Below, one piece after another: positions 3 through 22,123 of a DNA stretch of 29,288 nt (positions are counted from its first letter, which is position 1; every line of letters starts with the position of its first letter). The notes under the pieces were generated by a model that was not told the DNA's origin, did no database searches, and saw only the letters and a program-made list of their open reading frames with translations. The translations under genes and the position numbers were made by a program. Source of the DNA: a virus; the IMG/VR virus record IMGVR_UViG_3300025759_000483, positions 1 to 29,288 of that record. The stretch is one strand, 5' to 3'.

Positions 3-182
3 CTCGAAAAGGAAGGTTTGGACGTGACGGATAAGAAGGCAAAAGACCGTGCAAGGAAGGCTTGGGGACGTGCAATTAATGCGCTGGAAGGTGCGGACAT
101 TGTGGTTGTCCACGCCGGAAATCGGAAAATGGAGTGGGTGAAGGAAACGGACACGCTCGGACACGGATCGGACAAAGTATGA
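3..182 (+). CDS. C-terminal end of a probable primase/helicase-type ATPase (5' end outside window)
   Basis: The reading frame enters from the left edge and stops at a TGA, leaving 59 residues. The visible part is helix-rich and basic, with the pattern RARKAWGRAINAL, then a short strand pair (ADIVVVHAGN) and an aromatic end (KMEWV). This looks like a winged-helix domain of the kind found at the C-terminus of phage and prophage RepA-like AAA ATPases and primase/helicase proteins. No catalytic motif lies in the window, so the enzyme assignment rests on this short tail and on the replication genes that follow. The 3' end is overlaid by the first copies of a CGGACA repeat array. The stop overlaps a possible ATG of a small ORF (ATGA). 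A different DNA-binding protein is possible. Confidence 0.55.
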   Translation, partial: LEKEGLDVTDKKAKDRARKAWGRAINALEGADIVVVHAGNRKMEWVKETDTLGHGSDKV

Positions 183-336
183 AAGCTATGAAAGCCAGCA
201 ATGACGCGGGTTGTATGGATTCGCGGACAAACGCGGACACGGAACGGACACAATCTGGGACAAAGACAGGGTGCGGACGGACACGGACAAACACTATAGT
301 TTGTCCTGTCTGTCCACATCTGTCCGCCGATGTCCG
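148..336. repeat. Helically phased CGGACA hexamer array, direct then inverted
   Basis: CGGACA, or a one-base variant, starts at 148, 158, 169, 224, 234, 245, 257 (GGGACA), 274 (CGGACG), 278 and 284. The reverse orientation TGTCC then starts at 302, 311, 321 and 331. Steps within each group are mostly 9-12 bp, about one DNA turn. The orientation switches at a perfect 8-bp inverted repeat (GGACAAAC 285-292, GTTTGTCC 299-306) whose loop holds TATAGT. The array lies between the end of a replication gene and the start of the next gene. Regular helical phasing suggests binding of many copies of one protein on one DNA face, as in iteron origins or operators. The protein is unknown. Confidence 0.7.
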
Positions 337-352
337 GTGGGGTGAAAAATGA
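179..352 (+). CDS. Possible small translationally coupled protein within the repeat array
   Basis: An ATG at 179 overlaps the stop of the preceding gene (ATGA), and the TGA at 350-352 overlaps the ATG of the next gene in the same way. The 57-residue product is hydrophilic and ends with a CPVCP segment plus two further cysteines, so zinc binding is conceivable. The double ATGA overlap is typical of coupled phage operons and favours a real gene. Against this, most of the frame is made of the CGGACA repeat array, which by itself keeps several frames open, and there is no good ribosome binding site at 179. The function is unknown and the gene itself is uncertain. Confidence 0.3.
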   Translation: MKAMKASNDAGCMDSRTNADTERTQSGTKTGCGRTRTNTIVCPVCPHLSADVRWGEK

Positions 353-858
353 AAGAGTGGAGCAAACCAGTTCAAGCTGCTATTGAGTCGTTTATGACAG
401 CTGAGAACCAGATGAATAAGAAGTGGGGTTGGTATGCCTGGTTCAAGATGACGACCCCTGAGCTCGCGGCGAAGTATCAAGGCGCCAGAGAGCGTTACAT
501 GAAGATCACTGATCCTGACGAGAAGATCAAAGCTGCCGATAACCTGGCGAAGGGGCTGAAGGTGATTGATCAGCAGCTCTGTGAAGCAGGAGAGCGGGGC
601 GATGTCTTTTATCTCCAAGCCAGGATCAATGGCAAGAACTATTACTTTGTGAACGACAAACTCGACATGCAGCGAGTGATCCCATTGATGAAAGGGAAAG
701 ACCCAGTCGTGTACATGCTGGAAGAGATCGTCACGATCATTGAGGCGCACGGCACAGATGTGGCAGACACGATCAAAGCTGCTTTCCCAGGAGCTGAGGT
801 GAGAAGCATTCAGTTTAACCACAACAAGGACCAGCTAGACGATGAAATCCCCTTTTAA
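349..858 (+). CDS. Unknown 169-residue protein with SSB-like acidic C-terminal tail
   Basis: I do not recognise the family. The first about 90 residues are predicted mainly helical and tryptophan/tyrosine-rich near the start (KKWGWYAWFKM). A short beta-like stretch follows (GDVFYLQARINGKNYYFVND, residues about 84-103), then another helical part. The protein ends LDDEIPF, which matches the conserved tail of bacterial single-stranded-DNA-binding proteins (DDDIPF in E. coli), the docking site for many replication and repair enzymes. A GGGG-containing ribosome binding site lies just before the ATG. The tail codons overlap the start of the next gene (842). It may be a diverged SSB or a protein that uses an SSB-type tail to recruit repair or replication enzymes. 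An OB fold is not evident by eye. Confidence 0.75.
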   Translation: MKEWSKPVQAAIESFMTAENQMNKKWGWYAWFKMTTPELAAKYQGARERYMKITDPDEKIKAADNLAKGLKVIDQQLCEAGERGDVFYLQARINGKNYYFVNDKLDMQRVIPLMKGKDPVVYMLEEIVTIIEAHGTDVADTIKAAFPGAEVRSIQFNHNKDQLDDEIPF

Positions 859-1525
859 GGATAAGCCAAACATTAGGCGTTACTCGATCATCCCAGCTAG
901 GGCTATGCAAGATGAGCGGCTCAATGGTGCTGCTTACAAAGTGCTTGCTTGTTTGGGCATGTACGCGAATCGGTACGGTGTGTGTTGGCCATCACAGATA
1001 ACGATAGGACGGCACACAGGCTACGGTCGCGTTCATGTGAGCCGGACCATGGCAGTGCTGATCAAGTGTGGCTACGTCAGGAAGCTAGAGACAAGGCCAT
1101 ACCCTAAACACATCAAGCGGCGCTCAGGCAAGAAGGTGAACCGCTATCAGATACTGTGGGAGGGCAAAGATGCGATCCCGACCAACGAGCAGTTCTGGGC
1201 GCCAGCCAAGATCATTCCTGAGCCTGGAGAGGACGACTTCACCGAGCTAGATACACATATGCAGTCAGGGGTTAAAGGGGACTCAGACAAGGGCTACCAA
1301 GTACTAGCACATGCATTCAAGCAGGCAGTCGAGAGAGCTTCCGGGATGAATCGGCTGCCAGATCAGAGCTTCAAGGCAGCAAAAGTCCTTTGGGATCAAG
1401 AGGTTACGGTTGATCAGGTGCGTGATTACACAGCTGCGATGTGCCGCGAATCGTTGAAGGCTGGGCGCACTCCGCCGGCCAATCTAGACCAGGTCGCCAA
1501 ATGGGCTGGCCTGTACAATAAATGA
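842..1525 (+). CDS. Winged helix-turn-helix replication-initiator-like protein
   Basis: The 227-residue protein has an N-terminal winged helix-turn-helix (about residues 12-85). It matches the common phage and plasmid initiator pattern: RRYSIIPARAMQDE, then LNGAAYKVLACLGMYAN, a CWPSQ turn, and a recognition helix with VSRTMAVLIKCGYV. The middle is a basic wing and linker (RRSGKKVNRYQ). A separate helical C-terminal domain (about 150-225) may mediate oligomerisation or helicase contact, as in lambda-O-like and DnaD-like initiators. It starts inside the end of the preceding gene, so translation is probably coupled. The gene sits directly upstream of an intergenic region with DnaA boxes and 9-bp repeats, the usual place for an initiator beside its origin. 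A transcription regulator remains possible. Confidence 0.7.
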   Translation: MKSPFKDKPNIRRYSIIPARAMQDERLNGAAYKVLACLGMYANRYGVCWPSQITIGRHTGYGRVHVSRTMAVLIKCGYVRKLETRPYPKHIKRRSGKKVNRYQILWEGKDAIPTNEQFWAPAKIIPEPGEDDFTELDTHMQSGVKGDSDKGYQVLAHAFKQAVERASGMNRLPDQSFKAAKVLWDQEVTVDQVRDYTAAMCRESLKAGRTPPANLDQVAKWAGLYNK

Positions 1526-1540
1526 CCAATTGACATGAAG

Positions 1541-1549
1541 TTATCCACA
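1541..1549 (+). promoter_or_regulatory. Perfect DnaA box TTATCCACA
   Basis: The nine bases are identical to the high-affinity E. coli DnaA box. The site lies just after the initiator-like gene and just before an A+T-rich stretch, consistent with host DnaA helping to open a phage origin. Confidence 0.75.
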
Positions 1550-1584
1550 GAAAAAACGAATGCGTTATATATCAATGACTTACC

Positions 1585-1635
1585 GCACTGCACCATGGCG
1601 CGTAACATCTATTATGTTAAATCGCTGCACTGCAC
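1585..1635 (+). repeat. Pair of 9-bp direct repeats (iteron-like)
   Basis: GCACTGCAC occurs at 1585-1593 and 1627-1635, each followed by one variable base and AT. The copies are 42 bp apart, about four helical turns, and flank the dyad at 1603-1619. They may be binding sites for the initiator-like protein encoded at 842-1525. Two copies is a small number for an iteron array. Confidence 0.5.
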
Positions 1636-1659
1636 AATCGCCAAATCGCCCGTAAACCC

Positions 1660-1668
1660 TGTGGATAG
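1660..1668 (-). promoter_or_regulatory. Second DnaA-like box (CTATCCACA on minus strand)
   Basis: It differs from the consensus TTATCCACA by one base and faces the first box at 1541. The inverted pair brackets the repeats and the A+T-rich stretch of the candidate origin. Confidence 0.55.
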
Positions 1669-1719
1669 GCGTTGCCTGGTCGCCGGGCTTTCCGCTGTAC
1701 AAAAAATGGACACCCTTGC

Positions 1720-1749
1720 CCCCCCTACCCCATATGCGCCAGAGGGGGG
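1720..1749 (+). other. GC-rich hairpin upstream of the DUF3310 gene
   Basis: CCCCCCT (1720-1726) can pair with AGGGGGG (1743-1749) around a 16-base loop. A TTTTT run lies 14 bases further on, too far for a typical terminator. It could be a weak terminator, an attenuator or part of the leader of the next gene. Confidence 0.35.
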
Positions 1750-1790
1750 ATCTCGCTCAAAATTTTTCGAAATCCGACGGGAGAAGTAAA

Positions 1791-20398: not shown

Positions 20399-22123
20399 AT
20401 GGCTGATTACAACATCAATGCGGTAGAGCGAAAGGTATCCTACACCGGATCAGCCGGCCTGGGTCCATACTCCTTTTTGTTTGAGATTCTGACCGAGACG
20501 GACATTGTTGTTTATCTCAACCAGACGCTTCTGACAATTACTACTGACTACACGGTCACAATCAATGCCAACGGAACAGGGTCAGTCACTCTGGTCACCG
20601 GCGGTAGCGTTGCCACAACACCAACAGCATCTGACCTGGTTGTCATTGTCGGTGCGCGTGACATTGAGCGCACCACTGACTTTGTGACAGCAGGTGATCT
20701 GCGTGCGTCGGCTCTCAACGAGCAGCTTGATGCGCTGACAATTATGGTGCAGCAAGTATCAGAAGAAGTTGCGCGATCAGTTAAGGCGCCAGTATACGAT
20801 CCAACCGGCATCAACATGGTACTGCCCAAGAAGGCAGACCGGGTCAACGCATTCGTTGCTTTCGACGCAAACGGTGACATCTCAGCTGCTGTTCCTTCAG
20901 ACGACGTGACGACACTTGCAGAAGTTGCGACAGACATTAAGAACTTGGCCGACATTGAAGATGGCACAATCGCAACAGACGCAATCTCTGACACAGCAGC
21001 CATTGCGTCAGACATTACCGCAGTCGCAGCCGTTGATGCCCAGATCACTTTGCTTGGCACAGCAGACGCGATTGCTGATATGAACACGCTCGGTACTGCT
21101 GCAATTGTGGCAGACCTTGATGCGGTTGCTGACAAGGTGACAGAGATCGGACGTCTCGGTACAGCAGACGCCGTTGCAGATATGGCAATCCTCGGCACAG
21201 CGGATGTCGTCTCTGACATGAACACACTTGCGACGGCAGCGATTGTCGCAGACATGGATGCACTTGCAAACGTCACCGCTGAGATGGCACTGCTTGGAAC
21301 AGCAGATGCAATCGCTGACATGAATACACTCGGCACAGCAGACGTTGTGGCGGACATGAATACGCTAGGTACAGCTGCAACAGTATCTGATATGTCGACA
21401 CTAGCTGACATCTCTGCTGACATTCAGACCTTGGCCGACATTGAAGATGGCACTGACGCAACAGACGCTATCCAGACAGTCGCCGGTATCTCAAGCGATG
21501 TGACGGCGGTTGCCGCCAAGTCAACAGAAGTGGGGCGTCTTGGTACGGCTGACGCTGTTGCTGACATGGCTATCCTGGGTACGGCAGATGTTGTTGCTGA
21601 TATGAATACCCTGGGGACAGCAGCCATCGTTGCAGACATGGATACGCTGGCTGACCGGGCAACAGACATCGGCACACTGGCCGACATCGAGGACGGCACT
21701 GTTGCGACGACAGCAATCTCAAGCCTAGCTGCACTCAGCACAGAGATCCAGGCGTTGTACGCAGAGCTTGCATCGATTGCAGCAAAGGTCAGTAAGACCG
21801 GCGACACCATGACAGGTGACTTGATCCTCAACACCACTGGTGCATTGACACTGCCAGTCGGTACAGAGGCACAGCGCCCTAGTCCAGTCAAAGGGATGTT
21901 CCGATTCAACGACGACTCAGACGCCTTTGAAGGCTATGACGGAGCTGCATGGGGTGCTGTCGGTGGTGGTAACACGGCTGTCGTCGGATGGGAAAACCAG
22001 ATCACGGTAGCGGAAGACTATACGATGACTTCAGGTAACAACATGGTAAGTGCCGGGCCGATAACGATTGACACCGGCTTCACGGTCACAGTACCAACAG
22101 GATCAAGATGGGTGGTGGTGTAA
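20399..22123 (+). CDS. Tail fibre with T7 gp17-type anchor domain and 12-residue repeats
   Basis: Residues 1-130 match the T7 tail-fibre anchor: VERKVSYTGSAGLGPYSFLFEI, then VYLNQTLLTITTDYTV, ending RDIERTTDF and LNEQLDALTIMVQQVSEEVARSVKAP. That domain attaches fibres to the tail tube. Residues about 181-435 are a low-complexity shaft of 12-residue repeats (consensus LGTADAVADMNT) with three spaced LADIEDGT blocks. The C-terminal part holds KTGDTMTGDL (466-475) and a module VKGMFRFNDDSDAFEGYDGAAW (497-518). It ends SAGPITIDTGFTVTVPTGSRWVVV, common in marine phage fibres. It is probably trimeric and may carry the other fibre proteins. AGAGGA precedes the ATG. Confidence 0.92.
   Translation: MADYNINAVERKVSYTGSAGLGPYSFLFEILTETDIVVYLNQTLLTITTDYTVTINANGTGSVTLVTGGSVATTPTASDLVVIVGARDIERTTDFVTAGDLRASALNEQLDALTIMVQQVSEEVARSVKAPVYDPTGINMVLPKKADRVNAFVAFDANGDISAAVPSDDVTTLAEVATDIKNLADIEDGTIATDAISDTAAIASDITAVAAVDAQITLLGTADAIADMNTLGTAAIVADLDAVADKVTEIGRLGTADAVADMAILGTADVVSDMNTLATAAIVADMDALANVTAEMALLGTADAIADMNTLGTADVVADMNTLGTAATVSDMSTLADISADIQTLADIEDGTDATDAIQTVAGISSDVTAVAAKSTEVGRLGTADAVADMAILGTADVVADMNTLGTAAIVADMDTLADRATDIGTLADIEDGTVATTAISSLAALSTEIQALYAELASIAAKVSKTGDTMTGDLILNTTGALTLPVGTEAQRPSPVKGMFRFNDDSDAFEGYDGAAWGAVGGGNTAVVGWENQITVAEDYTMTSGNNMVSAGPITIDTGFTVTVPTGSRWVVV
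20939..21703 (+). repeat. In-frame repeats coding for the tail fibre shaft
   Basis: About a dozen 36-base units code for LGTAD-VADMNT-type residues. Leucines recur every 12 residues at 219, 231; 253, 265, 277; 299, 311, 323, 335; and 381, 393, 405. A block coding for LADIEDGT recurs at residues 183, 345 and 427. The repeats also keep the opposite strand open, producing long false frames. Confidence 0.8.

Follow-up and report, generated by a model that had tools for sequence, protein, structure and literature searches.

The window analysed here, a stretch of 29,288 nucleotides of viral DNA (IMG/VR record IMGVR_UViG_3300025759_000483, positions 1 to 29,288), opens with the 3' end of a primase-helicase gene, which is overlaid by many copies of the hexamer CGGACA. 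What does this array do, and which protein reads it? Our analysis indicates that it is probably the replication origin of the phage or the key initiator-binding part of that origin, and that its reader is a predicted winged-helix domain at the C-terminus (CTD) of the adjoining primase-helicase.

Organization of the hexamer array

CGGACA occurs in 11 exact copies on both strands of the stretch 89-345, all of them within 94-336. In 5000 dinucleotide-preserving shuffles of the same stretch, it occurred 0.35 times on average and 3 times at most, and no hexamer of any kind ever exceeded 7 copies. No other hexamer cluster in the 29 kb window is as dense. Its GGACA core is present in 10 direct and 5 inverted copies. 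Specifically, direct CGGACA starts at 94, 148, 158, 169, 224, 234, 245, 278, and 284, with a GGGACA variant at 257, and inverted TGTCC starts at 302, 311, 321, and 331, with an additional one at 107 within the gene. The original prediction, phased CGGACA-like direct copies followed by four inverted ones, is thereby confirmed, and the shuffled sequence with which it was to be compared falls far below the observed number.

The primase-helicase gene covers 3-182 on the plus strand, its reading frame running off the window start; the full gene is found in the near-identical contig L004, where it encodes a 638 aa protein. The codons of KDRARKAW, with which the recognition helix begins, lie at 42-65 (plus strand); residues of this helix vary with the iteron sequence. 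The array begins inside the CTD codons with an outlying direct iteron CGGACA at 94-99 (plus strand), kept in L001-L011, and an outlying inverted iteron (TGTCCA) at 107-112 (minus strand). The first direct triplet (148-174, plus strand; steps 10 and 11, also found in L035, L030, L039, and L040) overlies the coding tail and is followed by a spacer (175-223) that is not AT-rich, with a GC content of 0.45 in the near-identical L026. Next come a second direct group at 224-262, ending with the GGGACA variant, and a close direct pair at 278-289 (both plus strand). This pair lies to the left of the central dyad AACACTATAGTT at 290-301 (hairpin z = -3.9), where the orientation flips, and four inverted iterons at 302-336 (minus strand) complete the array. 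The array thus overlies the end of a replication gene, flips at a palindrome, and reaches the next gene start at 349, all as originally described; its end at 336 also stands, and its start moves from 148 out to 94. Additionally, a GAAAGCC...GCGGGTT-like sequence (about 183-214 in the window) recurs in the triplet spacers of family A, in arrays with different words.

The steps between direct copies are 10, 11, then 10, 11, 12, then 21, and finally 6 bp, and those between the inverted copies are 9, 10, 10 bp. A single helical register across the entire array was not supported (Rayleigh P = 0.12 for direct and 0.29 for inverted copies). The proposal that the spacing puts the sites on one face of the DNA therefore holds locally, for the 9-12 bp steps within groups, but not for the array as a whole.

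Arrays and their layout in relatives

Helicase relatives were taken from IMG/VR, and hexamer excess at the 3' end of the helicase gene could be determined in 126 loci, with 1383 windows of the same loci serving as controls. The excess lay above the control 99th percentile in 104 of the 126 loci and above the control maximum in 81. Near relatives carry the CGGACA array almost unchanged, and farther relatives keep the layout at the same position with a different hexamer, so the comparison with related phages that had originally been suggested comes out in favor of the array. About 25-30 different hexamers were found across the relatives, some entries being shifted readings of one longer word; they include CGGACA, CGAACA, CGCACA, GTGACA, GTGCGA, ATCACA, GTTATA, CGAACC, GGGACA, GGTTAC, ACTACA, GTCCTA, ATGTGA, TATGAA, TCTACA, GGAGGA, GTACCA, ATACCA, and GTAACA. 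Several arrays mix words: the GTAACA array of L240 has one GTACCA remaining, that of L225 mixes GTAGGA and GTCGGA, and the CGCACA arrays of L012-L018 retain one CGGACA. These mixed or leftover words are possible intermediates of word change.

Among isolated phages, a clear array is present in Roseobacter CRP-811 and CRP-831, Alteromonas XX1924, Idiomarinaceae 1N2-2, and Rhizobium N65, as well as in the EBPR siphovirus 5 sequence, and a weak one in Salicola CGphi29 and Serratia Susuwatari. The array is absent from the more distant AAA_25 phages Caulobacter RW, Mycobacterium Wanda, and Gordonia Gustav. A nucleotide search against phage records gave no match, and contig scans with the helicase as query gave no relatives.

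The layout is conserved in its steps and its dyad. In 58 non-redundant arrays, the distance between same-strand neighbors is 9 bp in 67 cases, 10 bp in 80, and 11 bp in 34, each of these distances being expected about 13-16 times. A CCTWWAGG-type dyad, of which AACACTATAGTT is the weaker form in the window (CTATAG), occurs in 54 of 90 array regions versus 23 of 1537 control windows; it sits between convergent copies, 2-8 nt away from them in most arrays having it. In family B (CRP-811-like), the spacer is AT-rich (mean GC 0.33 versus 0.52, 47/47 arrays) and contains an IHF-like site at no more than one mismatch in 30 of 39 cases, compared with about 10% of AT-rich controls. Neither an AT-rich spacer nor an IHF-like site was found within the arrays of the window's own family. 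The GC skew of CRP-811 and CRP-831 makes no turn at the array and is uninformative as evidence on the origin.

Co-variation of the hexamer with the helicase C-terminal domain

The helicase contains a region resembling Toprim as well as AAA_25 (Pfam 1.1e-39), and Foldseek relates its predicted model to Twinkle, T7 gp4, and RSF1010 RepA, the last through 1nlf/1g8y/1olo with E values of about 1e-11 to 1e-12. The last ~95 residues, the CTD, are modelled as a winged helix of three helices and a beta hairpin with a mean pLDDT of 86.6. A Foldseek search with the CTD model returned nothing below E 0.001, and VIA-align gave Z scores of up to 8.8 to the winged helices of MCM, ORC, and MukE. These structural neighbors of the predicted model support the fold and are uninformative on function.

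Each word group has its own, internally constant recognition helix in the CTD: RARK/RGRK goes with CGGACA, RLRM with CGAACA, RRRM with CGCACA, and ARRQ with GTGACA. Close pairs of loci illustrate the change. L161 and L168 have helicase bodies that are 97% identical, CTDs that are 26% identical, and different words (CGGACA versus ATACGA); since their downstream genes start nearly the same, the exchanged piece comprises the CTD and the array. Similarly, L235 and L240 share 100% of the body and 84% of the CTD, and carry GTACCA and GTAACA, respectively. In family B, an Arg in NK-R-QA accompanies GTACCA and a Ser or Asn (NK-S/N-QA) accompanies ATACCA; L241 is nested in the GTACCA clade, which implies at least two changes between these words. 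When all pairs are considered, the AUC for predicting motif identity is only slightly higher from the CTD than from the body (0.845 versus 0.763 in family A, 0.971 versus 0.967 in family B), as most of the history of the tail is also that of the body. The co-variation of CTD and hexamer is partly phylogenetic. The word does not demand one particular tail: L156 and L161 combine CGGACA with an unrelated tail, at 18-22% CTD identity to the window group, and more than one recognition helix can therefore reach one word. The word groups and the close pairs suggest that the helicase C-terminal winged-helix domain is the reader of the array, which it would bind.

Two other proteins are encoded beside the array. 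The original prediction had named as binder the winged-helix protein at 842-1525 (plus strand), an O-like/HTH_36 replication protein, and this candidate was rejected. It and the hexamer do not track each other, as L041 shows: tail and array are of the CGCACA type there, whereas the O-like protein is that of the CGGACA groups (83% identity to L035 versus 47% to L046). Moreover, no homologue of it was found in 45 of 45 family-B and 25 of 60 family-A loci with enough room, and arrays are present in such loci. The other neighbor, a 169 aa protein with no assigned function directly beside the array (349-858, plus strand), has homologues in 54 of 60 family-A loci with downstream room. It is an unlikely binder, as L161 and L168 differ in word with near-identical downstream starts and only 9 of 45 family-B loci have a homologue. 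L041 alone does not exclude this protein, because its 169 aa homologue is closest to that of L046. In a column comparison, two alignment columns of the helicase, and none of the other proteins, separated the four motif groups completely; with so few groups this carries little weight. In L036 (IMGVR_UViG_3300006919_001652), the 169 aa and O-like proteins form one 391 aa frame, which is either a real fusion or a one-base assembly error.

A probable replication origin and its alternatives

Ordered copies of a short word beside a helicase gene agree in copy number, spacing, and place with an iteron-type origin. Because of this layout and the co-variation, we infer an iteron origin bound by the helicase CTDs, which makes the multi-subunit platform of the original prediction, listed there as an iteron-like origin among other options, most likely an origin. 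In the mechanism that we envisage, several helicase subunits would occupy the phased 6-bp iterons along one side of the DNA, and the opposite-orientation copies flanking the CTATAG/CCTWWAGG dyad would make two helicase assemblies face each other. Melting or extrusion would then occur in the dyad region, and two rings would load in opposite directions; the primase-helicase is probably self-loading. The Toprim domain would prime, and a host or phage polymerase would take over. Because protein and site adjoin, CTD and array could be exchanged as one cassette, and such an exchange could therefore change the specificity with the layout staying as it is.

Another candidate start lies 1.2 kb downstream of the array. 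The conserved non-coding region 3' of the O-like gene (1526-1790, plus strand) contains a perfect DnaA box TTATCCACA at 1541-1549 and an exact IHF consensus TATCAATGACTTA at 1570-1582, as well as ATGTTAAAT, a G/C-rich inverted repeat (about 1717-1750), and then CTCAAAATTTTTC. From its sequence, it could be a second, complementary, or main start, with the array then a helicase-loading site. Replication would in the last case begin here with the O-like protein, as at a lambda- or plasmid-like origin, and the array would only load or concentrate the helicase. Most of the relatives examined retain the box and the adjacent IHF consensus, and PHROG matches of the O-like protein include 'replication initiation'; however, arrays occur where this protein was not detected despite enough room (45 of 45 family-B and 25 of 60 family-A loci), and L019 keeps the array without the DnaA box. 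We consider this lambda- or plasmid-like reading unlikely. In lambda terms, the nearby gene has O-like matches, but unlike ori lambda the array lies outside the O-like gene and persists where the protein is undetected.

We give a low probability to the array being an operator, through which the helicase or another protein would control its own operon or the gene at 349, with no replication start. The array does lie between two co-directional genes, close to the next start codon, and initiators often autoregulate. However, no sigma-70-type promoter match was found within 1-900, autorepressors usually sit upstream of their own gene rather than downstream as here, and a dozen phased sites, a conserved dyad, and the AT-rich spacer with an IHF-like site in family B are more than an operator needs. 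A partition (parS-like) or packaging site, which can also have short-repeat clusters with an inverted half, is very improbable, as the array accompanies the helicase gene and changes along with the CTD, and in CRP-811 it is found next to that gene, the circular map placing the small terminase gene about 4.6 kb away.

A replication origin at this position has precedents. The origins of SaPI, PICI, and SCCmec lie directly 3' of the helicase gene and are read by the helicase CTD, C-terminal recognition being shown for SCCmec Cch2 on a putative origin and stated for SaPI Rep (PMC6092414, PMC7581432). To call the array something other than a standard element, as was done at first, is thus too strong. 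The similarities comprise the position directly 3' of the helicase gene, the short iterons, the CTD as predicted reader, and helicases that are likewise thought to self-load. In contrast, the SaPI, PICI, and SCCmec helicases are MCM- or D5-like, and the core in the window is AAA_25 and RSF1010 RepA/Twinkle-like. The iteron sets of SaPI and PICI flank an AT-rich region, which is a property of family B only and not of the window's spacer, and they differ from the array in its CCTWWAGG-type dyad between convergent iterons. Furthermore, SaPI, PICI, and SCCmec are satellites and cassettes, whereas the window belongs to a tailed phage with large terminase and head-tail adaptor genes, and CRP-811 is an isolated phage carrying capsid, portal, and terminase genes. 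Because of the other kind of helicase, the phage element, and the spacer that is not AT-rich, the system in the window falls outside the SaPI/PICI family. By analogy, the best reading is that the array works like a SaPI/PICI rep-ori with a different helicase superfamily, without being a member.

In PLE of Vibrio cholerae, the DNA-binding domain of RepA and the origin co-vary and are swapped as a module, with specificity tested (PMC7145576, PMC8263062). The phage array resembles PLE in that binding domain and origin co-vary and exchange together. Unlike the array, PLE uses a RepA_N initiator without helicase or primase, three ~30 bp semi-palindromic iterons, and an N-terminal binding domain. 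Phage P4 alpha (ori/crr) and N15 RepA unite primase, helicase, and C-terminal origin binding in one protein and use iterons, with another helicase superfamily than that of the window and sites arranged differently. The predicted helicase core shares the fold of RepA from RSF1010 (IncQ). In IncQ plasmids, the ~20 bp iterons are bound by an initiator distinct from the helicase, RepC, with RepA, RepB, and RepC acting at oriV; unlike these, the array consists of 6-bp words that follow a CTD fused to the helicase.

The array may exemplify a widespread, undescribed class of phage origins, a broader proposal in which we have somewhat less than even confidence. In this class, an SF4-type (Twinkle/RepA-like) self-loading primase-helicase would read its own origin via a C-terminal winged helix, with CTD and origin exchanged or co-evolving as a cassette. 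There would be dozens of 6-bp words and a readable residue-base code (Arg-G, Ser/Asn-A), and the system would separate the replication of co-infecting phages or escape origin-targeting enemies. The roseophage papers searched contain no mention of iterons or an origin of replication. The arrays offer candidate, testable origins for abundant marine phages without one in the literature searched. They also suggest that many phage primase-helicases may choose their own origin. Near-identical helicases with differing tails and words amount to a natural mutagenesis series, from which a winged-helix recognition code and orthogonal replicons should be resolvable. These candidate origins would be relevant to incompatibility between phages during co-infection and to counter-measures aimed at origins, for example the Odn nuclease (PMC8263062). 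Elsewhere in the window, at 20399-22123, a protein with many TADAVADMxxLGTADVVxDM-like repeats gives rise to long spurious antisense frames.
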